Shown here one piece after another: positions 39,778 to 61,295 of a DNA stretch of 64,000 bases (position 1 is the first letter of the stretch; every line of letters starts with the position of its first letter). The notes under the pieces were generated by a model. That model saw only the letters and a list, made by a program, of their open reading frames with translations, had not been told where the DNA came from and did not search any database. Position numbers and translations under genes: made by a program. Origin of the DNA: Malaciobacter marinus (GTDB lineage Bacteria > Campylobacterota > Campylobacteria > Campylobacterales > Arcobacteraceae); NCBI RefSeq assembly GCF_003544855.1, contig NZ_CP032101.1, forward strand, positions 1,054,001 through 1,118,000. Direction: 5' to 3'.

Positions 39778-39828
39778 TTTTATTTAATGAACTTTCATTC
39801 ATAATTAAAAAAAGTTATACTATTATAA

Positions 39829-39836
39829 ATGTACAT
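39829..39836. promoter_or_regulatory. ATGTACAT site before the TetR gene
   Basis: A self-complementary ATGTACAT lies 19 bases before the TetR start, sharing its TGTACA core with the acnB palindrome. It would suit autoregulation, but an 8-bp palindrome is weak evidence alone. Confidence 0.35.
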
Positions 39837-39854
39837 AAAATAAAGGTATATAAA

Positions 39855-40448
39855 TTGTCTGCAAAAGAAGTTAAAAAAAATAGTATAATTCAAAATGCGT
39901 TAAAACTTTTTTCAACAAAAGGTTTTTATAATACAACTATCCCTGATATCGCAAAATCAATGCAAATGAGTGTTGGTAATATGTATAATTATTTTGCCTC
40001 TAAAGAAGAATTGGCAAAATATGCCATTAAGTACTCAACTAATATTTTAGCAAAACAGTTAAGAACTATAAATCATATGGATATTTCTTGTAAAGAGAAA
40101 ATTTTTCTATTTACAAGAGAATATTTAGAAAATGTAAAAGACTCTCCTGAAGTAATAGAGTATTTTTTGAGAGTTTATCTTTCAAATAGAGAAGTTTTTG
40201 CACAAGGTTGTGAGGGCTTTTTATGCGTAAGTGAGTTTGTAACTGAGGTTATGATACTTCTTGATGAAGGTGCTGAAAAAAATGAGTTAAGACAACAAGA
40301 ATTTTTCTCTGCCTTTTCTATGGTTATGGGATGTTTAGGTGGTTTTGCTTTTTTAAGTGGAGAAAAGGTTTTAGATAAAGATCTTTTAGAATATTCAGAT
40401 AGTGTAGCTGAAAATATATATAGAGCATTAAAAAGTGACAAGACATAA
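39855..40448 (+). CDS. TetR/AcrR-family regulator linked to hydrogenase genes
   Basis: This 197-residue regulator has a TetR helix-turn-helix at about 22-60 (TTIPDIAKSMQMSVGNMYNYFASKEEL in family register) and an all-helical ligand domain. The start is TTG with AAAGG upstream. Its final 14 bases are the start of the next gene, a hydrogenase small subunit, so the two are translationally coupled, which is unusual for H2-responsive regulation. No ligand is identifiable. TGTACA sites before this gene and acnB are candidate operators. Confidence 0.88.
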   Translation: MSAKEVKKNSIIQNALKLFSTKGFYNTTIPDIAKSMQMSVGNMYNYFASKEELAKYAIKYSTNILAKQLRTINHMDISCKEKIFLFTREYLENVKDSPEVIEYFLRVYLSNREVFAQGCEGFLCVSEFVTEVMILLDEGAEKNELRQQEFFSAFSMVMGCLGGFAFLSGEKVLDKDLLEYSDSVAENIYRALKSDKT

Positions 40449-41346
40449 ACCTAAGATTGTTTGGCTTCAAGCAATTACTTGTAATGGGAATACTCATTCT
40501 TTATTAAGTTCAAACTCTTCTAGATTTGAACTTTTTTTAAATAGTTTTGATTTATTTTATCATCCTTCTTTAACTACAGACACATCATTAGATGATGTAA
40601 TTAATCTTGAAAATATAGACTTCTTATTAATTGAAGGAGCTATTACTTCAAGTAGTGATTATTTTACAATCTCAGATAATAATATTTTAGATTTATTAAT
40701 AAAATTAGCGAATAAAGCATCTTATATAATTAGTGTAGGTTCATGTGCATCATTTGGTGGGATTCATGCGAAATTTGATGAAGACAAAAGTATAAAAGGA
40801 GTTCCAGATTATTTAAATAATTTAGAACTAAATAATTTAAAACAAAAAATTATAAATCTTACAGGTTGTCCTGTTCATCCAGAATGGATTTTACAGACAT
40901 TATTTACTCTTAAAAATAATAAAACAATACTTTTAGATGATAAACAACGTCCAAAAGAGATATATTATGGTCTTGCACACCATGGATGTACAAGAAATGA
41001 ATACTTTGAATGGAAAGTTGAAGCAAAAAGTTTTGGAGTAAAAGAGGGCTGTCTTTTTTATGAACAAGGATGTAGAGGACCAATGACACATAGTAATTGT
41101 AATAGGGTTTTATGGAACGATGTAAATACAAAAACAAGAGCTGGAATGCCTTGTATTGGTTGTACAGAGTTTGATTTTCCAAGAGAAAATATGTTAGAGA
41201 CTAAAAAAAATATTGGTATACCAACGCAAGTTCCTTTAGGTATAAATAAAAGAGCATATTTAACAATTACAGGAGTTGCAAAAACTTTTAAAATTGATAG
41301 ATTAAATAATAAGTTAATAAATAAAGAAGAATATGAAAACAGTTGA
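40435..41346 (+). CDS. [NiFe] hydrogenase small subunit, cytosolic group 2-like (HupU/HupS type)
   Basis: This 303-residue small subunit has no Tat signal, unlike the exported hydrogenase downstream. It starts at a GTG inside the TetR gene, right before the conserved KIVWLQAITC. Fe-S ligands include Cys16, VGSCASFGG, TGCP, HHGC, CLFYEQGC, CNRVLW and CIGC. The proximal motif is C-N-G-N instead of C-x-x-C, so the second cysteine is Asn19, a substitution I recall from cyanobacterial HupS. With the large subunit it forms either an H2-sensing hydrogenase or a soluble group 2 uptake enzyme; sequence alone does not decide. Confidence 0.85.
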   Translation: MTRHKPKIVWLQAITCNGNTHSLLSSNSSRFELFLNSFDLFYHPSLTTDTSLDDVINLENIDFLLIEGAITSSSDYFTISDNNILDLLIKLANKASYIISVGSCASFGGIHAKFDEDKSIKGVPDYLNNLELNNLKQKIINLTGCPVHPEWILQTLFTLKNNKTILLDDKQRPKEIYYGLAHHGCTRNEYFEWKVEAKSFGVKEGCLFYEQGCRGPMTHSNCNRVLWNDVNTKTRAGMPCIGCTEFDFPRENMLETKKNIGIPTQVPLGINKRAYLTITGVAKTFKIDRLNNKLINKEEYENS

Positions 41347-42688
41347 TATAATCGAAAGAATTGAAGGCGAAGCCAAATTAGTTTGTTCTTGGGAAAATAG
41401 TCGTATAAGTGATGCAAGAATAGAGTTTTTAAATTTTAGAGGTTTTGAATATATTTTAAAAGATAAACCTGCACTTGACACTTTGATTTACACTCCTAGA
41501 ATTTGTGGAATTTGTGGACAAGCACATCTAAAAGCAACTGTTGAAGCTTTAGAGAATATATATACAAATATTAATGAACCTTTAGAAGTTACAAATAAAG
41601 CAAAACTTTTAAGAGAAATAGGTTTAAATATTGAAATAATTGATTCTCATATAAAATGGTTTTATATGTTTATTATGCCAGATATTGCGAAATTATCTTC
41701 TGATATAAAATATGAAAAATATAAAGCAATTAAAGGTAGTCAATGGCTTAATGCTTCAAAAATTACAAGTGAAATTATAAAGTCATTAGCAATTATAGGT
41801 GGTCAATGGCCACATACTTCATATATGGTTCCTGGTGGAGTCATGAGTGATCCTACACTTCTTGATTTAACTTCAATGCAAAACTATTTAGATCAAGCAG
41901 TAATATTTTTTGAAAATAGTTTAACCGGAGTTGATATTATTGATTACCTTTCATTTGATAATATAGACTCTTTAGAAAAATTGGATTATGCACTTAAAGA
42001 TTTTAAAAATATAAGTTTTGAAAATGAACTTGAAAAAATTGGTAAAAGTTATGATTCTCATATAGTATTAGCTTCAAGCTCTTTATTTGAAAGTGCTAAG
42101 ATAAAAACAAAAAATAAACATAAAATTGATATAAATAAAGTAAAAGAAGAAAATATCAATAGTTTTAAAGTAAACAGTACTAAAAAAGATAATGAATATA
42201 CTTGGTCAAAAACTGCACTTTATAATAATGAATTTTATGAAACAGGACCTTTATCAAGAGCATTAGTTTCAAATAGAAGTTTTATAAAATCAATTCATAA
42301 AGAGTATAAAGATTCTGTATTTACAAGAGTCTTTGCAAGAATGGACGAGTTTGCCCATCTTTTAATAAAAACAAAGGATTTAATCTCAAAAATTGATATA
42401 TCCCAAGAGTCTTATATAAAACCTAAATACTCTTATAGTGAAATAGAACATGCAAGTTCAATTAGTACTGTTGAAGCAGCAAGAGGATCTTTGTATCATA
42501 AAATAATTATGGAAAAAGGTATTATAAAATCTTATGATGTAATTACACCTACTGTGTGGAATTTAGGTCCAGGAATAAATGCAAAACTTGGAGTTGCACA
42601 AAAAGCAATAATTGGAGTTGATTCTTTAGAAAAAGCACAAATTATACTTAGAAGTTTTGATGTTTGTTCTGTTTGCACAACACATTAG
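41333..42688 (+). CDS. [NiFe] hydrogenase large subunit, group 2-like (HupV/HupL type)
   Basis: This 451-residue subunit overlaps the small subunit by 14 bp. The N-terminal Ni ligands are in RICGICGQAH. The C-terminal pair is DVCSVCTTH, with valine where DPCxxC has proline, and the protein stops right at that histidine. It therefore has no C-terminal peptide to be removed by a maturation protease, a feature of H2-sensing hydrogenases such as HupV/HoxC. It is shorter than catalytic large subunits such as the 576-residue one downstream. No HoxJ-type kinase is nearby, so any signalling output is unclear. Confidence 0.87.
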   Translation: MKTVDIIERIEGEAKLVCSWENSRISDARIEFLNFRGFEYILKDKPALDTLIYTPRICGICGQAHLKATVEALENIYTNINEPLEVTNKAKLLREIGLNIEIIDSHIKWFYMFIMPDIAKLSSDIKYEKYKAIKGSQWLNASKITSEIIKSLAIIGGQWPHTSYMVPGGVMSDPTLLDLTSMQNYLDQAVIFFENSLTGVDIIDYLSFDNIDSLEKLDYALKDFKNISFENELEKIGKSYDSHIVLASSSLFESAKIKTKNKHKIDINKVKEENINSFKVNSTKKDNEYTWSKTALYNNEFYETGPLSRALVSNRSFIKSIHKEYKDSVFTRVFARMDEFAHLLIKTKDLISKIDISQESYIKPKYSYSEIEHASSISTVEAARGSLYHKIIMEKGIIKSYDVITPTVWNLGPGINAKLGVAQKAIIGVDSLEKAQIILRSFDVCSVCTTH

Positions 42689-43130
42689 TAAACGCCATAT
42701 TTAAGCCATTTTAGTGACAAAAAAAGAACAAAAATTTTTTTATTTATAGAAATATGCTAAAAAATAATATTAACCTAAGAAACATTAAAAAAATTTTTTA
42801 AGATAAGTGAAAGTTTTAACTTAATTATTTAATATAATAATAAATTAAACTTATAATCTTTGAGTTGATTTTACACACATTATAATCTTATTTTAAAAAA
42901 AAATTAGAAAATTAAAAATTAACACTTGGTTAAGTTTAAGTTATGTAATATTAATTAATTAGTTTATATTACATTAAACGAGTTTAAAAAAAATGCCAGA
43001 TTTAATTTGGTTTTTTTTATAAGTAAAACATGAATGATTGTTCATTTATAGTGTATCTATTAAGGTTTAGGTAAAAAATTTTAAAATAAATTGTAAAAAG
43101 TTTATTTTACTTCAATAAAAAGGAACTATT
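42689..43130 (+). other. Leader region of the membrane hydrogenase operon
   Basis: These 442 AT-rich bases separate the two hydrogenase gene sets. They hold a candidate terminator at 42986-43018 and an imperfect inverted repeat ATGAATGATTGTTCAT at 43030-43045, about 85 bp before the small subunit start. No sigma-54 site was found and no open reading frame is supported. The exported hydrogenase must be transcribed from here. Confidence 0.6.
42986..43018 (+). terminator. Candidate terminator or attenuator before hydA
   Basis: CCAGAT and ATTTGG form a 6-bp stem (one G-T wobble) with a 3-base loop, followed by eight T residues; an A-run on the other side can extend it. It is 300 bp after the group-2 large subunit and 110 bp before the next gene, so it could end the first operon or attenuate the second. 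Confidence 0.5.
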
Positions 43131-44291
43131 TTGAAAACAACTGATTTATTTAGTAAGTTATCAAAAAGATTGTCAAGTTTAGAAAGACTAAAAAAACTTG
43201 ATGATAAGAAGTCTATTCCATCTATTTTAGAGGAAAAAGGTGTTAGTAGAAGGGATTTTATGAAATGGGCTGGTGCTATGACTGCTATGTTAGCACTTCC
43301 AGCGAATTTTACTCCTTTAGTTGCAAAAGCTGCTGAACTTAGTGATAGATTGCCAATTATCTGGCTACATATGGCAGAGTGTACAGGATGTTCTGAGTCA
43401 CTACTTAGAACAGATGCCCCAACAATTGATTCACTTATTTTTGATTATATCTCTTTAGAGTATCATGAAACATTGATGGCTGCTGCTGGTTGGCAAGCAG
43501 AACATAATTTAGAAAGTGCAATTGAAAAATACAAAGGTCAATATATATTAATGGTTGAAGGTGGTATCCCAGCAGGTGAAAACTCACATTTCTTAACTAT
43601 TGGTGGTCATGGAAAAACTGGTGAACAAAATGCTATTGATGCTAGTGAAAATGCAGCTGCTATTTTTGCTATTGGTACATGTTCAAGCTTTGGTGGTGTT
43701 CAAGCAGCATTCCCAAATCCAACAGGTACAGTTGCATTATCAAAAGTAACAGACAAAACAGTTATAAATGTTCCTGGATGTCCTCCAAGTGAGAAAAATA
43801 TTGTTGGTACATTATTACACTACCTTTTATATGGAACACTACCTGCACTTGATGTATATAATAGACCAAAATGGGCTTATGGACTTAGAATTCATGATTT
43901 ATGTGAAAGAAGAGGGCATTTTGACGCAGGTGAATTTGTAGAAGAGTTTGGTGATGAGGGTGCAAAAAAAGGCTACTGTTTATATAAAGTAGGTTGTAAA
44001 GGACCTTATACTTTTAATAACTGTTCAAAAAACAAGTTCAACTCTCATATGTCTTGGCCTATTCAAGCTGGTCATGGATGTATTGGTTGTTCTGAACCTG
44101 ATTTCTGGGATACAATGGGACCATTTGAAGAACCTGTTGCTGATAGATTATACAATACAGTTTTTGGCGGTTTAGGTGCTGATGCAACTGCTGATAGAAT
44201 TGGAGTTGGACTATTAACTGTGACAGGTATTGGTATAGCAGCTCATGCAGCAATATCTAAATTTAAAAACCCAAAAGAAGATGAGGAGTAA
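43131..44291 (+). CDS. hydA: Uptake [NiFe] hydrogenase small subunit, Tat-exported
   Basis: This 386-residue protein starts at TTG with AAAGGA upstream. A twin-arginine signal SRRDFMKWAGA (about 39-49) and hydrophobic stretch lead to the small subunit domain, whose proximal cluster is the normal CTGCSES. Further ligand motifs are GTCSSFGG, PGCPP, HDLCERRGHF, CLYKVGCKGP and CIGCSEP. A C-terminal membrane helix (GVGLLTVTGIGIAAHAA) anchors it. It passes electrons from periplasmic H2 oxidation to the cytochrome b subunit. The large subunit gene follows after 3 bp. Confidence 0.95.
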   Translation: MKTTDLFSKLSKRLSSLERLKKLDDKKSIPSILEEKGVSRRDFMKWAGAMTAMLALPANFTPLVAKAAELSDRLPIIWLHMAECTGCSESLLRTDAPTIDSLIFDYISLEYHETLMAAAGWQAEHNLESAIEKYKGQYILMVEGGIPAGENSHFLTIGGHGKTGEQNAIDASENAAAIFAIGTCSSFGGVQAAFPNPTGTVALSKVTDKTVINVPGCPPSEKNIVGTLLHYLLYGTLPALDVYNRPKWAYGLRIHDLCERRGHFDAGEFVEEFGDEGAKKGYCLYKVGCKGPYTFNNCSKNKFNSHMSWPIQAGHGCIGCSEPDFWDTMGPFEEPVADRLYNTVFGGLGADATADRIGVGLLTVTGIGIAAHAAISKFKNPKEDEE

Positions 44292-44294
44292 AAG

Positions 44295-46025
44295 ATGGCA
44301 AATAAAAGAGTAATAGTTGACCCAATTACAAGAATTGAAGGACATTTAAGAATTGAAGTAGAAGTAGATGAAAATAATGTAATTCAAAAAGCTTACTCAA
44401 CATCAACATTGTGGAGAGGTTTAGAAACAATTGTTAAAAACAGAGATCCAAGAGATGCTGGTTTTTTAATGCAAAGAATTTGTGGAGTTTGTACATATTC
44501 TCACTATAGAGCAGGGATTGAAGCAGTTGAAGATGCATTAGGAATTGAACCTCCATTAAATGCAAAATTAACAAGAAGTTTGATGAATCAAGCTTTATTT
44601 TTACATGACCATATAATCCACTTTTATCATCTTCATGGTCTTGATTGGGTTGATGTTGTATCTGCACTTAAAGCAGATCCTGCAAAGGCTTCAAAAGAAG
44701 CATTTAAATATGCAAAATATCCAATTGGTACAGGTGAAAATGAGTTAAAAGCAGTTCAAGATAAAGTTAAGATATTTGTTGACAAAGGACAACTTGGCCC
44801 ATTTGCAAATGCATATTGGGGACATGAAACTTATAAATTAACTCCTGAAGAAAATTTAATAGCTTTATCTCACTATTTAAAAGCCTTAGAAATTCAAAGA
44901 GAATTAGCAAAAATGATGGCTATATTTGGAGGTAAACAACCACATCCACAAAGTTTAACTGTTGGTGGTGTTACTTGTATTATGGATTTATTAGACCCTT
45001 CAAGAATGGGTGAATATTTAACTATATTCAAAATGGCTAAAAACTTCGTAGATAATGCATATTATGCAGATATCTTAATGGCAGGAAAAGCTTTTAAATC
45101 TGAGCCTTCTGTTGTACAAAAAAGAGGAGTTATGAACTTCATGTCACATGAAGAGATGCTATTAAATAGAAGTGAATATCTATTTGATACTGGTATTATC
45201 ATGAATGGTGATTTATCAAAAGTATATCCTATAAATGAAGACTTAATTACAGAAGAAGCTACTCACTCTTGGTATAAAGATAATCAACCTTTACATCCAT
45301 ATGATGGAAAAACAAATCCTAACTATACAGGTTTTGTAGATAAAGACACTGTTGGAATGGATGGAAAAATGGTTCATTCAAAAGCAATTGATGAAAATGG
45401 AAAATACTCTTGGATTAAATCTCCAAGATATGATGGTAAAGCAATGGAAGTAGGACCTTTAGCTTCTGTACTTGTATCATATGCTAGTGGAAATAAAAAA
45501 ATCCAAAAAATTGTAAATGAATTTTTAGAAAAATCAGGTTTACCAACAGAGGCACTATTTACAACGCTTGGAAGAACAGCTGGAAGAATGCTTCAAGTAA
45601 AAGCAATTGCAGATAATGGTATGGAAACTTTTAATACTTTAATTGAAAATTTAAAAGTAGATCAAGAGACTTATACTTCTTATAAAATTGATAAAGATAA
45701 AGAGTATAAAGGAAGATTTATTGGTGATGTACCAAGAGGTATGCTATCTCATTGGATTAGAATTAAAAATGGAGTAGTAGAAAATTACCAAGCTGTTGTT
45801 CCATCAACATGGAATGCAGGTCCAAAAGATGCTAATGGATTAATGGGACCTTATGAATCAAATCTTGTAGGAATGAAAGTTGCAGATATTTCTCAACCTT
45901 TAGAAATTATTAGAGTTATTCACAGTTTTGATCCTTGTATTGCTTGTGCAGTTCATGTAATGGATGTTAAGGGTAATAATTTAGGAGTATATAAAGTAGA
46001 CCCAGTTTATGGGGCGAGCTGTTAG
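44295..46025 (+). CDS. hydB: Uptake [NiFe] hydrogenase large subunit
   Basis: This 576-residue catalytic subunit has both Ni-Fe motifs: RICGVCTYSH near residue 61 and DPCIACAVH near the end, followed by a peptide of about 20 residues that the dedicated protease must remove. It is carried to the periplasm with the Tat-bearing small subunit. It oxidises H2 and feeds the quinone pool. Length and order match group 1 membrane-bound uptake hydrogenases of Campylobacter and Helicobacter. GGAG before the ATG. Confidence 0.96.
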   Translation: MANKRVIVDPITRIEGHLRIEVEVDENNVIQKAYSTSTLWRGLETIVKNRDPRDAGFLMQRICGVCTYSHYRAGIEAVEDALGIEPPLNAKLTRSLMNQALFLHDHIIHFYHLHGLDWVDVVSALKADPAKASKEAFKYAKYPIGTGENELKAVQDKVKIFVDKGQLGPFANAYWGHETYKLTPEENLIALSHYLKALEIQRELAKMMAIFGGKQPHPQSLTVGGVTCIMDLLDPSRMGEYLTIFKMAKNFVDNAYYADILMAGKAFKSEPSVVQKRGVMNFMSHEEMLLNRSEYLFDTGIIMNGDLSKVYPINEDLITEEATHSWYKDNQPLHPYDGKTNPNYTGFVDKDTVGMDGKMVHSKAIDENGKYSWIKSPRYDGKAMEVGPLASVLVSYASGNKKIQKIVNEFLEKSGLPTEALFTTLGRTAGRMLQVKAIADNGMETFNTLIENLKVDQETYTSYKIDKDKEYKGRFIGDVPRGMLSHWIRIKNGVVENYQAVVPSTWNAGPKDANGLMGPYESNLVGMKVADISQPLEIIRVIHSFDPCIACAVHVMDVKGNNLGVYKVDPVYGASC

Positions 46026-46034
46026 GAGCATATT

Positions 46035-46706
46035 ATGATAAAGAAACACTATGAGTTTTCGTTTTGGCTTAGAGTTACACACTGGGTAAGGGCAATAGCA
46101 ATTATAATTTTAACAGCTAGTGGTTTTTATATTGCATATCCATTTATTGCTCCAGCACATAATGGAGGAGAACCAGTTAATTTTCTAAATGCATTATTTA
46201 GATCATGGCACATAATATTTGGATTTTTATTAATATCAGTTACTCTTGGTAAATTTTATCTATTTTTCTTTGATAAACAAAGTAAAGTTGAAAGAGCTTC
46301 ATTTAAAGATTTTATTAATCCAAAAGTTTGGATTAATCAAATTAAGTATTATTTGTTAATTGGAAAACATCCACATGGAAAAGGTGTTTATAATCCATTA
46401 CAATTTATGGCATATGTAGGTGTATATGGTGCTATTATACTTATTTCTTTGACAGGATTGATTTTATATATTCATGTGTATCATCAAGGTATGGGTGGAA
46501 TGTTATATGATATTTTAAGACCTGTTGAAGCAATGTTTGGTGGATTAGCATGGGTTAGACAATTACATCACATTGCAATGTGGATTTTTATAATTTTCTT
46601 ACCAATTCACATATATCTTGCAGTATTTAACTCAGTATATGGAAAATCTGGAGCTATGGATTCAATCTTTAGTGGATATAGATGGGTAAAAAAGAAAGAT
46701 AAATGA
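46035..46706 (+). CDS. hydC: Hydrogenase cytochrome b subunit
   Basis: This 223-residue integral membrane protein has four or five helices with haem-ligand histidines in THWVRA, WHIIFG and LHHIAMW, as in Ni/Fe-hydrogenase b-type cytochromes. It takes electrons from the small subunit and reduces menaquinone. AGGAG precedes it, 9 bp after the large subunit; the protease gene overlaps its end by 4 bp. Confidence 0.93.
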   Translation: MIKKHYEFSFWLRVTHWVRAIAIIILTASGFYIAYPFIAPAHNGGEPVNFLNALFRSWHIIFGFLLISVTLGKFYLFFFDKQSKVERASFKDFINPKVWINQIKYYLLIGKHPHGKGVYNPLQFMAYVGVYGAIILISLTGLILYIHVYHQGMGGMLYDILRPVEAMFGGLAWVRQLHHIAMWIFIIFLPIHIYLAVFNSVYGKSGAMDSIFSGYRWVKKKDK

Positions 46707-47266
46707 ATATCTTAATTTTAGGTATAGGAAATATCCTTTTCCAAGATGAGGGTATGGGCGCACACTTTGTTCACTATTTAGATGAAAAATATGAGTTTGA
46801 AAGTGAACACAGTAGTGTAAGTATCGTAGATGGTGGAACATTAGCCCATAGGCTAATTCCACTTATTGTTAAGTTTGACCATGTAATTGTAATAGATTGT
46901 ATTGATGCAAATGATTCAAAGCCAGGAGATATCTATTTTTTTGATTTTGAAAATGCACCAAAAGAGATTGATTGGCAAGGAAGTGCTCATGAAATAGAAA
47001 TGCTTCAAACACTTAATATGATTCAAATGAATGGAGATTTACCTAAAACGCAAGTTTTAGGTATTATTCCAAAAAGAGTAGCAGATGATACGACTTTTGA
47101 ATTAAGTGATGAAGTAATAAATGCAACCTCTACAATGGAAAAAACTGTAATAGAACATTTAAAAAGCTTAGAAATAACACCAAAAATAAAAAAAGATGAT
47201 ATAACAATCACGCATATATCACAAGTTTCATATAAAAGAGAGATTATTAATGATCCTAAAATTTAA
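46703..47266 (+). CDS. hydD: Hydrogenase maturation endopeptidase
   Basis: This 187-residue protein is an HyaD/HupD-type protease: GIGNILFQDEGMGAH at the start with the nickel-binding Glu, then VIDCIDA with the second acidic ligand, and a conserved-position histidine in SAHEIEML. It removes the C-terminal peptide of the large subunit after nickel insertion. It starts within the cytochrome b stop and overlaps hydE by 17 bp. The group-2 large subunit upstream has no such peptide, so this enzyme serves only the exported one. Confidence 0.92.
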   Translation: MNILILGIGNILFQDEGMGAHFVHYLDEKYEFESEHSSVSIVDGGTLAHRLIPLIVKFDHVIVIDCIDANDSKPGDIYFFDFENAPKEIDWQGSAHEIEMLQTLNMIQMNGDLPKTQVLGIIPKRVADDTTFELSDEVINATSTMEKTVIEHLKSLEITPKIKKDDITITHISQVSYKREIINDPKI

Positions 47267-48905
47267 ATTTGACTATAACTCAAATAATAACACTTTAATC
47301 TATTTTTTACATACTATTGCAAAGCAAAGTAATTTAGAATATAAAGTAACTAAGAGTAATTTTATAAATTTATTTATCAATGGTAATGAAGATGAACTTA
47401 CAAAGTTTTCAACAACTTTAAGTTCATCTTTACCAATGTCAATATTTTTTAAAGATAGTACAGCAGAAGTTGTATCACAAATGAGTGATGAGCAAAGTAT
47501 AGGTTTTGATAATGAAAAAATAAACTTACCATTTTGTTCTTCATGTTTAGAAAAAGTTGAAGATAATACTTCTAAGAATTTTTACAATCCCTTTGTATCT
47601 TGTGATATTTGTGGAACAACTTGTGATGTAAATGAATTAAGCTTTCTTGATTTTGATAAACAACAAATTCATTATGAAAACTATGAAGAGTTATTTAAAA
47701 AAATAGCCTTTTTATTAAATGATGAAAAAAGTATAAAAATAAAGACTAGATCAGGAAGTTTTGTATTTAAAAAACTAATGAAAACAGAAGAAAATGTAAA
47801 ACTATTATGTACAAATTTAGCAAATATATCTAAAGTTTTTATTGCAAATAAAGCAGAAGTAGTTGCCCTTGCAAGTATAGAAAAACCTATTATAAATCTA
47901 AGGGTAAATGAAGTATTTAAATTAACTAATACTTTAAATCAAGAGTATGCTAATGTAAGATTTGTAAATGATTTGATATTATATTTACTTGCTAAAGAGT
48001 TGAAAAATTATGATATAGATTTCTTGATTTATGATGAAACTTCAAAGTTTGATTATGAATTAACTTATGAAAAGCAATTAGAAGCACTTGATATTATGAA
48101 AATAAAAATCATTGATGATAAGAATATAATTTTAGAATCAAACTCATATAATAAAGTTTTAGATGATATTTATTCTAAATTTAAAGAGCCTTCAAAAAGC
48201 CATTTTATGGTGCTTTTACATGAATATAATTTTTATAATAAATCAATTTTAAATTTTTATTCTTCAACTAAAGAAGATGATAATATCGCCTTATATTCTA
48301 AAGATATAGAAGGACTTTTAGATATAGTAAGTTACAAGTTACCAAACTCAATTGAAGAAATTTTTGAAACACTTAAAAAAGATGAAACTGCTTCAAAACT
48401 ACTTGAAAACTATAAAAATAAATATTCAGATATTTATGAAAATGCAAAAAACTGTGATATATCTTCTCTTAAAACAAATAGTATTTATTCTTATTGGAAA
48501 ATAATCTCTGTAATTTTAGGTTTTACTTCAAAAATAGAAGAGGATAATGTTCTTTTAAATAATGCAACAGCATGTGTCTTAGATAAAGGTCCTAGAATTG
48601 ATTATAAACTAAAAGAGAGTGATAAAATTTTTAATAAAGAGTTTTTACTTCATAAATTAATTCAATCTGGCATGAGTTTTAAACTTGCTGGAGTTGATGA
48701 TAAAACTTTATCTTTAGGTTATGTTGAGAGTTTTGCACACTATATATCAACTTTAATTGATGATATACATAGTGAAGTTAAACTTGATGGAATAAGTTTT
48801 ACAGGCAATCTTTTTTCTAATGAATTAATTTCTAAATTAGTTCATAAAAGTATTACAAAAAATTTTAAAATATATTATAATAAGGACTTCGTAATACAAA
48901 AATAA
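47250..48905 (+). CDS. hydE: HydE-like hydrogenase accessory protein, degenerate HypF paralogue
   Basis: This 551-residue protein occupies the place of hydE in the Helicobacter pylori hyd operon. Its residues about 90-130 (LPFCSSCLEKV... SCDICGTTCDV) mirror the HypF zinc finger CQDC...CTNCGP encoded next door, and its C-terminal 100 residues parallel HypF's Kae1-like end (GISFTGNLFSNELISKLV against VLTGGVFQNKTLLEK). HypF's acylphosphatase motif, second zinc finger and nucleotide-site residues are absent. It is therefore probably a non-catalytic HypF relative needed for hydrogenase assembly. The similarity is from direct comparison of the two neighbours; the function is inferred. Confidence 0.72.
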   Translation: MILKFKFDYNSNNNTLIYFLHTIAKQSNLEYKVTKSNFINLFINGNEDELTKFSTTLSSSLPMSIFFKDSTAEVVSQMSDEQSIGFDNEKINLPFCSSCLEKVEDNTSKNFYNPFVSCDICGTTCDVNELSFLDFDKQQIHYENYEELFKKIAFLLNDEKSIKIKTRSGSFVFKKLMKTEENVKLLCTNLANISKVFIANKAEVVALASIEKPIINLRVNEVFKLTNTLNQEYANVRFVNDLILYLLAKELKNYDIDFLIYDETSKFDYELTYEKQLEALDIMKIKIIDDKNIILESNSYNKVLDDIYSKFKEPSKSHFMVLLHEYNFYNKSILNFYSSTKEDDNIALYSKDIEGLLDIVSYKLPNSIEEIFETLKKDETASKLLENYKNKYSDIYENAKNCDISSLKTNSIYSYWKIISVILGFTSKIEEDNVLLNNATACVLDKGPRIDYKLKESDKIFNKEFLLHKLIQSGMSFKLAGVDDKTLSLGYVESFAHYISTLIDDIHSEVKLDGISFTGNLFSNELISKLVHKSITKNFKIYYNKDFVIQK

Positions 48906-48914
48906 GAAGTTTTA

Positions 48915-51143
48915 ATGATAAATAGTAAGATAGTAAAAGTTAAAGGAATAGTTCAAGGAGTTGGTTTTCGACCTTTTGTTTATAATCTTTGTAAGAAGTT
49001 AAAAATCAATGGTTGGGTAAATAACGATGATGAGGGTGTAAACATAGCTTTAGAGGCTAATGAGTTTTTAATTGAAGAGTTTATAAAACAATTAAAAACT
49101 TATTCTCCACCTTTGGCTGTTATTGATTCTTTGAAAATTTTAGATAAAGAGTTTGAAAATTTTAATGACTTTCAAATTATTGAAAGTAAAAATAACTCAA
49201 ATAAAACTACAATAATTTCTCCAGATATTTCAATTTGTCAAGATTGTATTGATGATATAAATGATGAAAATAATTTCAGATACAATTATGCTTTGACAAA
49301 TTGTACTAATTGTGGTCCAAGATACTCAATAATAAAAACTGTTCCTTATGATAGAGTTAATACTTCAATGGAAAAGTTTACTTTGTGTCCTTTATGCCAA
49401 GAAGAGTATACAGATCCTACTAATAGAAGGTATCATGCACAACCTGTATGTTGTGAGAAGTGCGGTCCAAAATTAGAACTATTTAATAAAGAAAATAAAA
49501 AAATACAAAAAGATATTGAAGCAATAAAAAAGATTGCTGCACTAATTAATAATGGAGAAATAGTTGCCATTAAAGGTCTTGGTGGTTTTCATTTGGTTTG
49601 TGATGCAACAAATGATAAGGTAGTAGAAGAATTAAGATTAAGAAAAAATAGACCTACAAAACCTTATGCTGTTATGTTTAAAAATATTGAACAAGTATAT
49701 GATTATGCATTATTTAATGAATTTGAAAAAGATATTATAACTTCAAAAGAAAAACCAATTACACTAGTAAAGAAAAAACAAAATACAAATTTAAGTTCCT
49801 TGATCGCACCAAATATAAGTAAAATTGGTGTATTTCTTCCTTATACTCCTTTGCATATTATTTTATTTAAATTTTTAAACAATCCAATTATAGCAACAAG
49901 TGCTAATTTAAAAGATGAGCCAATTATAAGGCATAAAGATGAACTTTTATCAAAACTTGGACATGTGGTTGATTTTGTTTTAGATTTTAATAGAGAGATT
50001 ATAAATGCAGTTGATGATAGTGTTGTTCAAGTGATTAAAGATGATGTAGCTAAATTAAGAAATGCAAGGGGATATACCCCAACTACAATAAAATTAGAAA
50101 CAAAACAAAATAAAAAGATAATGGCACTAGGAGCAAATCAAAAATCAACTATATCTTTTTGTTTTGAAGATAATATAATTGTTTCTCCTCATATAGGGGA
50201 TTTAAACTCTATTGAATCCCTTGAATATTTTACAAGAACAGTTGAAACTTTTAAAAGATTTTATGATTTTGAACCTGATGTTATTGTTTGTGATAAGCAT
50301 CCAAATTATGAAAGCACAAAATGGGCAAGTAAATTAAATATTAAAGTAGTAAAAATACAACATCACTATGCACATATTTTAAGTACTATGGCAGAATATA
50401 AGTTAAAAGATAAACTTTTAGGTTTTAGTTTTGATGGCACAGGTTATGGAGATGATGGAAATATTTGGGGTGGAGAAGTCATGCTTGCATCAAAAGAAAA
50501 TTATAAACGTCTTTTTCATTTTAAATATTTTAAATTACTTGGTGGAGAAAAAGCAGTAAAAGAGCCTAAAAGAGTTGCTTTATCACTTTTATTTGATAAT
50601 TACACTTTAAATGAATTAAAACAAATGAATATTGCATTATTAAATGAGTTTACAAATATGGAATTAAATAATTTTTATATGATGTGGCAAAAAGAGATTA
50701 ATGCTCCTCTTACAAGCTCACTTGGAAGAGTTTTTGATGCAATTGCATCTTTATCTAATATTGCACATACTCAATCATATGAGGGTGAAACAGGACTTTT
50801 GATTGAAGAGTATTATGATAAAAATATATTAGATTCTTATAAATATAAAATAGAAAATGAAGAAATTGATATTTCAGATATGATAAAAATGATTATAACT
50901 GAGTCCAATAAAAAGATTATTTGCTCAAAGTTTATAAATACAATTGTAAAAATTGTAGTTGATATTTCAAATAATTATAATGATTTAGATATTGTCTTAA
51001 CAGGTGGAGTATTTCAAAATAAAACACTTTTAGAAAAATGCATTGATGAACTTAAAAAAGTGAATAAGAAAGTATTTTTTAATAAAAAAGTCTCTTTAAA
51101 TGATGGAGGCATTTCAATAGGTCAATTGTATTTTTTAGTTTAA
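48915..51143 (+). CDS. hypF: Carbamoyltransferase HypF
   Basis: This 742-residue protein has all HypF parts in order: an acylphosphatase domain (GIVQGVGFRPFVYNL, residues 8-90), two zinc fingers (CQDC...CTNCGPRYS and CPLC...CCEKCGP), a YrdC domain (IVAIKGLGGFHL and LRNARGYTP), and a Kae1-like end (QHHYAHILSTM, FSFDGTGYG, LTGGVFQN). It makes carbamoyl-AMP from carbamoyl phosphate and hands the carbamoyl group to HypE for the cyanide ligands of the Ni-Fe site. It lies in the structural operon, away from hypBCDEXA 5 kb downstream. Confidence 0.96.
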   Translation: MINSKIVKVKGIVQGVGFRPFVYNLCKKLKINGWVNNDDEGVNIALEANEFLIEEFIKQLKTYSPPLAVIDSLKILDKEFENFNDFQIIESKNNSNKTTIISPDISICQDCIDDINDENNFRYNYALTNCTNCGPRYSIIKTVPYDRVNTSMEKFTLCPLCQEEYTDPTNRRYHAQPVCCEKCGPKLELFNKENKKIQKDIEAIKKIAALINNGEIVAIKGLGGFHLVCDATNDKVVEELRLRKNRPTKPYAVMFKNIEQVYDYALFNEFEKDIITSKEKPITLVKKKQNTNLSSLIAPNISKIGVFLPYTPLHIILFKFLNNPIIATSANLKDEPIIRHKDELLSKLGHVVDFVLDFNREIINAVDDSVVQVIKDDVAKLRNARGYTPTTIKLETKQNKKIMALGANQKSTISFCFEDNIIVSPHIGDLNSIESLEYFTRTVETFKRFYDFEPDVIVCDKHPNYESTKWASKLNIKVVKIQHHYAHILSTMAEYKLKDKLLGFSFDGTGYGDDGNIWGGEVMLASKENYKRLFHFKYFKLLGGEKAVKEPKRVALSLLFDNYTLNELKQMNIALLNEFTNMELNNFYMMWQKEINAPLTSSLGRVFDAIASLSNIAHTQSYEGETGLLIEEYYDKNILDSYKYKIENEEIDISDMIKMIITESNKKIICSKFINTIVKIVVDISNNYNDLDIVLTGGVFQNKTLLEKCIDELKKVNKKVFFNKKVSLNDGGISIGQLYFLV

Positions 51144-58650: not shown

Positions 58651-59646
58651 ATGAAAACAGTAACATTAGCTCATGGAAATGGTGGAGCAGAAAATCAAGA
58701 ACTTATCTCAAAAGTTTTTTATAAAGCATTTAAAAATGATATTTTAACAAAAAGTGAAGATGCAGCTGTTATTGAAGATGGAAACTTAGCTTTTACAACG
58801 GACTCTTTTACTGTAAGTCCTTTATTTTTTAGTGGTGCTAATATAGGAAAACTTTCTATTTGTGGAACTTGTAATGATTTGGCAATGATGGGAGCAAAGC
58901 CAAAGTATTTAACTTGTTCTGTGATTATAGAAGAGGGCTTTGATATAAAAAGTTTAGAAAAAATAGTAAACTCTATGAAAAAAGAGCTTGAAATAAATGA
59001 AGCAATTGTTGTAAGTGGAGATACAAAAGTAGTTCCAAAAGGAAGTGTAGATAAGATTTTTATAAATACAACAGGAATTGGTCAAATACAACAAAAAGGT
59101 ATTAGTTCAAACTCAATTACACAAGATGATGTAATTATTGTAAGTAGAGATATAGGTTGTCATGGAGCTACTATTTTTGCTGCAAGAGAAGGTATGGATA
59201 TGTCTAGTGATTTAAAAAGTGATTGTGCATCACTTTTTATTCAAGTAAAAGCTTTAATTGAAGCTGGTATAAAAATTACAGCTTTAAGAGATGCAACAAG
59301 AGGTGGAGTTAGTGCTGTATTAAATGAGTGGGCTAATCAATCAGATGTATGTATTGAAGTTGATGAACAAAAAATACCAGTTTCAAATGAAGTAAATGGT
59401 ATTTGTGAATTACTTGGGTTTGAAGCTATGAGTTTAGCAAATGAGGGTACCTTTGTAATGGCTATAAATAAAGATGAAGCATCAAAAGCTATTGAGGTTT
59501 TAAAACAGTTTGAAAACTCAAAAAATGCTTCAATAATTGCTAATGTTACACAACAATATTCTAAAAAAGTAGTTCTTAACTCAGAATGGGGAACAAAAAG
59601 ATTTTTAGAACTACCAACAGGTGAGTTATTACCAAGAATTTGCTAA
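58651..59646 (+). CDS. hypE: Hydrogenase maturation protein HypE
   Basis: This 331-residue protein has the ATP-binding AIR-synthase fold (LAHGNGGAENQEL at the start, FTTDSFTVSPLFF, ATRGGVSAVLNEW) and ends in the characteristic PRIC, whose last cysteine accepts the carbamoyl group and is dehydrated to thiocyanate. It works with HypF to make the cyanide ligands. The hypX start overlaps its stop (TAATG). Confidence 0.96.
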   Translation: MKTVTLAHGNGGAENQELISKVFYKAFKNDILTKSEDAAVIEDGNLAFTTDSFTVSPLFFSGANIGKLSICGTCNDLAMMGAKPKYLTCSVIIEEGFDIKSLEKIVNSMKKELEINEAIVVSGDTKVVPKGSVDKIFINTTGIGQIQQKGISSNSITQDDVIIVSRDIGCHGATIFAAREGMDMSSDLKSDCASLFIQVKALIEAGIKITALRDATRGGVSAVLNEWANQSDVCIEVDEQKIPVSNEVNGICELLGFEAMSLANEGTFVMAINKDEASKAIEVLKQFENSKNASIIANVTQQYSKKVVLNSEWGTKRFLELPTGELLPRIC

Positions 59647-61295
59647 TGAGGGTTTTACTTATTGTATCTTCTTTTAACTCACTATCTCAAAAGGTATATG
59701 TAAGATTAAAAGAGAAAAATTATATAGTTAGTGTTGATTATGCTTTAAGTGATGAGCTTATGATAAAAGAGGTTCAAAGATTTAAACCTGATATTATTCT
59801 TTGCCCTTTTTTAAATAAATTTATTCCAAGCCAGATTTTTGAAAAAACTCCTACTTTTATTGTTCATCCAGGAATTATTGGCGATAGAGGCTCAAACTCG
59901 CTTGACTTAGCAATTTTAGAAGATAAAAAAACCTGGGGTATAGTGATACTTAAAGCCAATGAAAATTTTGATGGTGGTGATATTTACTCTTATAAAAACT
60001 TTACAATGCCAATAAATAAAAGCAAAGCCTCAATATATAGAAATGAAGCAACAAACTGTGCAATAAAGGCAATTGATGAACTTTTTATAAATTTAAAAAA
60101 TAAAGAGTTTTCTCCAATAAAGCAGATATTAAATCCTTTACATAAAAAAATCACACAAAATGATAGAAAAATAAATTGGCAAGAAGATAGTAGTGATACA
60201 ATTATCAAAAAAATAAATGCAAGTGATTCAAGTCCTGGAGTTAAAGATAATCTTTTAGGTAAAGAGTGTTATTTGTACTGTGCTTTCAAAGAAGAGAGTT
60301 TAAAAGCAAAACCAAAAGAGATAATTGCAAAAAGAGATGGGGCAATTTGCATTGGAACAATTGATAAGTCAATTTGGATTACTCATCTAAAAGAGAAAGA
60401 TTATTTTAAACTTCCAGCAACTTATGTACTAAAAGATAAACTAAAAGGTGTAAAAGAGAATAGAATACCATTAGTTTTAGATACACATATTGATACCTTT
60501 TATGAATTAAGAGTGCAAAAAGATGATGAAATAGCATATTTGTATTTTAATTTTCACAATGGTGCTATGAGTACAAGCCAATGTATTAGATTAAAATATG
60601 CAATTGATTATTTAAAACAAGAATGCAAAGTTCTTGTACTTATGGGTGCAGAAGATTTTTTTAGTAATGGAATACATTTAAATATATTAGAAGATAGTAA
60701 AAAGCAAGGCGAAGATGGTTGGAGTAATATAAATGCAATAAATGATGTAGTTAAATCAATCATATTTTCTCCTGAGATTATAACAGTTACAAGTTTTGAA
60801 AAAAATGCAGGTGCAGGGGGAGTGTTTTTAGGCTTAGCAAGTGATTTTATTGTAATCAATGATGAGGTTGTTTTAAATCCACATTATAAAACACTAGCTC
60901 TTACAGGAAGTGAGTATCATACCTACTCTTTGCCAAAAAGAGTAGGAGAAAAAAAAGCTCAAGAAATAATAGACAAATGTTTGCCAATAGGAAGTAAAGA
61001 AGCAAAAAAGATAAATATGGTGGATATTGTTTTTGAAGATAAAAGTTATAAAGAAGATTTAAAAAATTTTACAAAAAGTTTAACAAAAGATTTAGATTGG
61101 TTTTATGACTTTTGTGAAAAAAAAGAAGAGTACTTAGATGAAAATAGTGAATATATAAATAGTTGTAAAGAAAAAGAGTTAAAACTTATGTACAAGCAGT
61201 TTTGGGATAAGGATTCTAATTTCCATATTTTAAGACAAAAATTTGTATATAAAAAGAAAGTTTTAGAAACTCCAAAAAGATTAAAGGAAATATAA
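59646..61295 (+). CDS. hypX: HypX/HoxX: CO-ligand synthesis for [NiFe] hydrogenase
   Basis: This 549-residue protein fuses an N-terminal formyltransferase domain (VHPGIIGDRGSNSLD and NENFDGGDIYSY) with a C-terminal enoyl-CoA-hydratase domain (LYFNFHNGAMSTSQC, GAEDFFSNGIHLN, GAGGVFLGLASDF). HypX/HoxX proteins of Ralstonia and Aquifex turn the formyl group of formyl-tetrahydrofolate into the CO ligand under oxygen. Its presence suggests this hydrogenase is matured in air. The ATG at 59646 is used, overlapping the hypE stop. hypA begins right after its stop. Confidence 0.92.
   Translation: MRVLLIVSSFNSLSQKVYVRLKEKNYIVSVDYALSDELMIKEVQRFKPDIILCPFLNKFIPSQIFEKTPTFIVHPGIIGDRGSNSLDLAILEDKKTWGIVILKANENFDGGDIYSYKNFTMPINKSKASIYRNEATNCAIKAIDELFINLKNKEFSPIKQILNPLHKKITQNDRKINWQEDSSDTIIKKINASDSSPGVKDNLLGKECYLYCAFKEESLKAKPKEIIAKRDGAICIGTIDKSIWITHLKEKDYFKLPATYVLKDKLKGVKENRIPLVLDTHIDTFYELRVQKDDEIAYLYFNFHNGAMSTSQCIRLKYAIDYLKQECKVLVLMGAEDFFSNGIHLNILEDSKKQGEDGWSNINAINDVVKSIIFSPEIITVTSFEKNAGAGGVFLGLASDFIVINDEVVLNPHYKTLALTGSEYHTYSLPKRVGEKKAQEIIDKCLPIGSKEAKKINMVDIVFEDKSYKEDLKNFTKSLTKDLDWFYDFCEKKEEYLDENSEYINSCKEKELKLMYKQFWDKDSNFHILRQKFVYKKKVLETPKRLKEI

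Follow-up and report, generated by a model that had tools for sequence, protein, structure and literature searches.

The window, a stretch of 64,000 nucleotides of the Malaciobacter marinus genome, contains a gene for a TetR-family repressor which runs directly into the genes of a [NiFe] hydrogenase, and this arrangement raises the question of what the repressor controls and whether the hydrogenase informs it about H2. The answer favored here, held with a probability of about two in three, is that tetR-hupS-hupL forms a one-component H2-sensing module relieving TetR repression of hydAB, the uptake hydrogenase genes of which the first, hydA, lies 1.8 kb downstream of hupS. The host genome is complete, with a size of 2.92 Mb, and encodes two [NiFe] hydrogenases.

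The relevant features are reported in Table 1. The overlaps of 14 bp between tetR and hupS, and again between hupS and hupL, on which the original prediction was founded, were borne out. The start of tetR was placed at TTG 39855, because an ATG at 39829, considered and rejected, lies in a different reading frame and leads to a stop codon. The gap between tetR and hupS mostly falls between -29 and +5 bp, and overlaps recur in most relatives. At four Arcobacteraceae loci (L119, L132, L140, L144) about 0.7 kb of extra sequence lies between hupS and hupL.

Table 1. Features of the tetR-hupS-hupL locus and of the downstream hydrogenase genes, in window coordinates.
Feature	Position	Strand	Basis
Operator-like palindrome TGAACTTTCATTCA, tetR promoter, predicted autoregulatory site	39788..39801	+	exact TGAACnnnCATTCA match
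tetR, TetR-family repressor, TTG start	39855..40448	+	TetR_N HTH domain, PF00440, E 8.4e-14
Codons Cys119 to Cys124 (CEGFLC), candidate redox/metal switch	40209..40226	+	Cys conservation
hupS, group 2d [NiFe] hydrogenase small subunit, GTG start, without signal peptide	40435..41346	+	PF14720, PF01058
hupL, group 2d [NiFe] hydrogenase large subunit, without C-terminal extension	41333..42688	+	PF00374
Operator-like palindrome TGAACAATCATTCA, upstream of hydA	43031..43044	-	conserved across the order and Aquificota
hydA, Tat-exported uptake hydrogenase small subunit, predicted target operon	43131..44291	+	TIGR00391, TAT_signal
hydB, uptake hydrogenase large subunit with C-terminal extension	44295..46025	+	PF00374, E 3e-215
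hydC, b-type cytochrome subunit	46035..46706	+	TIGR02125
Hydrogenase maturation protease	46703..47266	+	TIGR00140
hypF, maturation gene	48915..51143	+	TIGR00143

Conservation of tetR beside the hydrogenase, proposed as the comparison to be made in related genomes, was found to be near absolute in Campylobacterales and to extend to Aquificota. Among 200 Campylobacterales genomes, 94 contain both TetR and HupL and 99 neither, with 7 discordant cases (phi 0.93), of which one contains HupL only, at a contig end, and six TetR only. The two genes are linked, on one strand and contig, in 61 of the 64 Arcobacteraceae genomes containing both, while in the other 3 they are split between contigs; in the linked genomes the distance from the end of tetR to the start of hupL is usually 0.9 kb. 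Linkage was seen at every locus fetched outside Arcobacteraceae, the gene order tetR-hupS-hupL was found in 20/20 loci first fetched across Campylobacterales, and the same order is present in Aquificota, including Persephonella and Hydrogenothermus. TetR identity is 76-91% throughout Arcobacteraceae, and a further block of sequences falls at about 46-58%. Relative to the window protein, mean identity within Arcobacteraceae is 80% for TetR, 69% for HupS and 64% for HupL, TetR being the best conserved of the three. In one genome (G148) tetR and a perfect hydA site are retained and hupSL is gone; TetR can therefore persist without HupSL, which is not strictly required. In the same genome the opposite strand carries, between tetR and hydA, a gene for a sulfide-quinone-reductase-like flavoprotein (L212, 1140-2513).

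Two traits had suggested an H2-sensing hydrogenase, namely lack of export features in both subunits and lack of the cleavable tail in the large one. Both stood up to inspection: a TAT_signal is absent on HupS and present on the neighboring HydA, and HupL terminates at CTTH. The C-terminal tail is present in HydB and in HoxG of Cupriavidus necator, and absent in HoxC and HupL; nearly all of 72 aligned HupL relatives end in CTT[HQ], the others in close variants. Sulfurospirillum-type HupL proteins (L097, L098, L099) end in CTTQ, the usual last His being replaced. The assignment to known sensors did not hold, however, since HupSL is a group 2d enzyme rather than one of the HoxBC-type group 2b, and several 2b features are missing. 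In the HupL tree, a 12-member clade including Aquificota is separated from HoxC/HupV and from group 2a, with support of 100/99 for each of the HupL and HoxC/HupV clades; the huaSL hydrogenase of Aliarcobacter butzleri has been termed group 2d (PMC12286921). Sensor-type features, such as the second-sphere Gln and the set of cluster ligands, are described in PMC5665086. The second-sphere residue of HupL is His in 70/72 sequences and Gln in 2/72. HupS contains 9 invariant Cys, an Asn at the second proximal-cluster Cys position (74/75) and a medial site made up of three Cys, with Lys at the fourth medial position in 72/72 sequences having a residue there. RH gas-channel residues were tried as a discriminator and discarded: every HupL has the Ile, as do the group 2a enzymes, and the Phe position is variable. 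Strong conservation is seen in the HupS tail, AKxFKIxRL, which may be a candidate docking element.

These data bear on the possibility that HupSL is a conventional group 2b regulatory hydrogenase, signaling to a HoxJ-like kinase encoded elsewhere. This explanation, already disfavored, accounts for the missing C-terminal extension, as in HoxC, but not for the separate clade, the His in place of Gln or the lack of a fourth medial Cys. Moreover, the absence of a HoxJ-like kinase, originally noted for the window, held when the search was extended to the complete genome: no HoxJ orthologue was found in its 2.92 Mb, where the 59 hits cover essentially the kinase core only. A group 2b system is thus extremely improbable.

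An operator-like palindrome connects the repressor to the uptake hydrogenase. The first pattern used, TGAACnnnCATTCA, has only two exact matches in the window, which precede tetR and hydA, but proved too narrow; in its general form, TGAATnnnnATTCA, which allows C at position 5, the motif recurs before hydA across loci, including the second hydAB operon where present. The motif was derived from loci of Arcobacteraceae and then tried for the most part on other families, of which ten had been seen beforehand. Of the hydA promoters from TetR-bearing genomes, which had no part in defining the motif, 48/70 score 10/10 and 64/70 at least 9/10, while in genomes without TetR the corresponding figures are 1/40 and 3/40, as in shuffled sequence (Fisher p 1.8e-19 for sites scoring at least 9/10). 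Within single families, TetR-less genomes are also devoid of the site, with the exception of G091. This Sulfurospirillum-like genome (L253, L394), which has neither tetR nor hupSL, still carries a perfect operator at hydA, and its close relative G065 a decayed copy, TGAATAATCATGTA. The site is present also when hydA is distant from tetR or located on another contig (G034, G055, G089, G127, G152, G157). In Aquificota, the identical TGAATGATTATTCA immediately precedes hydA and closely follows a TTGACA-type promoter, and at a Hydrogenothermaceae locus (L335) the site is located about 30 bp before hypC, the first gene of a hypCDEA-hydAB run.

Within the genus, the hydA site occurs in 6/6 genomes and is the only genomic site common to all six, in which no other conserved operator was seen; the remaining sites of the M. 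marinus genome (e.g. contig positions 239841, 470563 and 2451527) are not shared. The predicted palindrome appears to overlap the target promoter, as is the case for TetR-family repressors, and its position between the -10 region and the start codon would fit the need of a repressor. Judging from these sequence data, TetR very likely controls hydAB and, because the predicted operator lies on the uptake-hydrogenase promoter, TetR is likely the output. Operon linkage and the predicted site on the hydA promoter, taken together, make the TetR-hydrogenase pair probably a new kind of H2 sensor.

The match before tetR calls for a different reading to be weighed, in which TetR acts purely locally, repressing only the hupSL operon that contains its gene. 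Such a role was proposed in Sulfurospirillum multivorans, where the TetR encoded ahead of hupSL was mentioned as its possible repressor (PMC5357620), and agrees with the predicted operator detected at the tetR promoter in part of the Arcobacteraceae, this window included. Outside that family, however, the site is found at hydA and the tetR promoter does not rise above background, so TetR does not seem to be kept as a local hupSL repressor; since most tetR promoters are devoid of the site, the ancestral target would be the hydAB uptake hydrogenase rather than the tetR operon. A purely local role is therefore very unlikely.

Control of hydAB by TetR leaves the input to be considered. The AlphaFold model of TetR (pLDDT 88.7) predicts an all-helical TetR fold, and sequence and fold searches of the PDB returned no informative relative beyond the general family. 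Cys119 and Cys124, forming a Cys-x4-Cys pair, are invariant in 31 aligned hydrogenase-linked TetRs, and the pair is also kept in the linked TetRs of Aquificota; the loop containing it is predicted with the lowest confidence within an otherwise good model. Most of the unlinked paralogues in Campylobacterales keep the DNA-binding recognition helix and are missing both cysteines, while two paralogues whose genes come last in hydrogenase operons (G023 p1, G162 p3) retain both. Some unlinked paralogues have a TGAATATTCATTCA of their own upstream, which suggests that DNA specificity is common and sensor residues are different. The segregation of the Cys pair is supported at the level of sequence comparison, along with the operon, its linkage and the dependence of the predicted hydA operator on the presence of TetR. 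One paralogue (L386, 5693-6349), with the same DNA-binding helix, no Cys pair and TGAATATTCATTCA upstream, is found near SelD-like, TusA/YedF-like and rhodanese-like genes and may represent a sister regulon concerned with sulfur or selenium.

In the mechanism proposed, a TetR dimer would be bound, without H2, to TGAATnnnnATTCA at the hydAB promoter, and transcription of the respiratory uptake hydrogenase, the main H2-consuming enzyme of the cell, would be blocked. When H2 is available, it would be oxidized by the cytoplasmic group 2d HupSL, and the electrons, directly or via a carrier, would act on Cys119-x4-Cys124, which may form a disulfide or a metal/Fe-S site; TetR would then be released, and hydABC and the maturation genes expressed. 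The H2-sensing TetR circuit originally predicted has thus gained the linkage and the predicted hydA operator; H2 as the signal, the relay through HupSL, contact between TetR and hydrogenase, electron transfer to TetR and the sign of control are its inferred parts. HupSL is probably the H2 sensor for hydAB control, while redox signaling via Cys119 and Cys124 is put forward with some reserve, the odds being slightly against it. More tentative again is a specific version in which H2 electrons leave HupS and reduce the Cys-x4-Cys of a TetR held in the same complex, as the function of all group 2d enzymes of Campylobacterota and Aquificota; direct wiring from hydrogenase to TetR, with no kinase and no second messenger, is proposed as part of it.

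Alternatively, TetR could repress hydAB in response to some other signal, such as cellular redox, O2, sulfur species or a ligand, with HupSL as an accessory enzyme sharing the operon. The options given in HydDB for group 2d are provision of reductant for carbon fixation, which would suit an accessory enzyme, and regulation (PMC5037454). The cysteines would be capable of general redox sensing, and one genome, as described above, has TetR and the operator with no hupSL. In addition, hydB of S. multivorans is constitutive, being expressed under nearly all conditions, with hupL almost silent (PMC5357620); of the published findings, this one speaks most strongly against H2 control in the species. 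Low expression of tetR-hupSL could explain it. An accessory role, on the other hand, is at odds with the near perfect co-occurrence of TetR and HupL, with an operon linkage spanning two phyla and with a Cys pair that tracks linkage to the hydrogenase. The three-Cys proximal and medial sites also suggest potentials too high for ferredoxin. Aquifex Hase III is of low abundance and hard to detect, which the authors of that work read as speaking against ferredoxin reduction (PMC10052474); in Sulfurimonas denitrificans, hupL transcripts were found, yet no soluble H2 uptake activity was detected (PMC4149538). Overall, a different signal is considered rather unlikely, and relief of repression by H2 is preferred.

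Expression data from A. butzleri are in line with the preferred reading: upon addition of H2 both hynAB sets were up, as expected if H2 relieves hydAB repression, while huaSL was not up and in fact fell (PMC12286921). In the same experiment 1191/2260 genes changed, so this was not a specific response. No report of a TetR-hydrogenase H2 circuit, or of this operator, was found in a literature search.

The genes downstream of hydA complete the predicted target. The maturation protease is required by HydB and not by the tail-less HupL. A second HypF-related protein, with weak HypF similarity at both ends, is encoded at 47250-48905, between the protease gene and hypF; similar proteins, of low identity, are found in most hydAB operons of Campylobacterales. 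Between hypE and hypA there is a gene (59640-61295) which we take to be HypX-like, and which suggests synthesis of the CO ligand of the [NiFe] site under air.

The predicted phylum-wide regulon acting on the uptake hydrogenase makes the role of group 2d directly testable. If true, the circuit would represent a third class of H2 sensor, based on a one-component repressor, besides those using a kinase and cyclic-di-GMP; it would account for the way in which hydrogen use might be fitted to supply in many free-living Campylobacterota and Aquificota, and would provide synthetic biology with a compact, two-part H2-responsive switch. H2-sensing hydrogenases as such are already known, the novelty being the output through a one-component repressor of the same operon.

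Compared with known systems, HupSL is a member of group 2d, falling in the same clade as Aquifex Hase III and the Campylobacterota HupSL/HuaSL enzymes and sharing the tail-less HupL; in the literature consulted on this group a link to TetR is noted in S. multivorans only. With the group 2b enzymes HoxBC/HupUV, exemplified by C. necator, it has in common the cytoplasmic location, the lack of signal peptide and C-terminal extension, and the link to control of an uptake hydrogenase operon. It differs from them in clade, in the second-sphere residue and in the HupS ligands, as group 2b has ligands for three [4Fe-4S] clusters and HupS an Asn at the proximal and a Lys at the medial site; the HoxBC/HoxJ/HoxA system, moreover, uses a kinase and an NtrC-type activator where a TetR repressor is found here in the same operon. 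Group 2a enzymes, of the mycobacterial HupSL/Huc type, share the Asn for the second proximal Cys (CxGN motif) and a high small-subunit identity (37%), but are respiratory scavenging enzymes whose large subunit keeps the C-terminal extension. Group 2c enzymes, putatively linked to diguanylate cyclases, are likewise thought to signal via a linked output protein, the output being c-di-GMP in their case and a DNA-binding repressor in the one described here.
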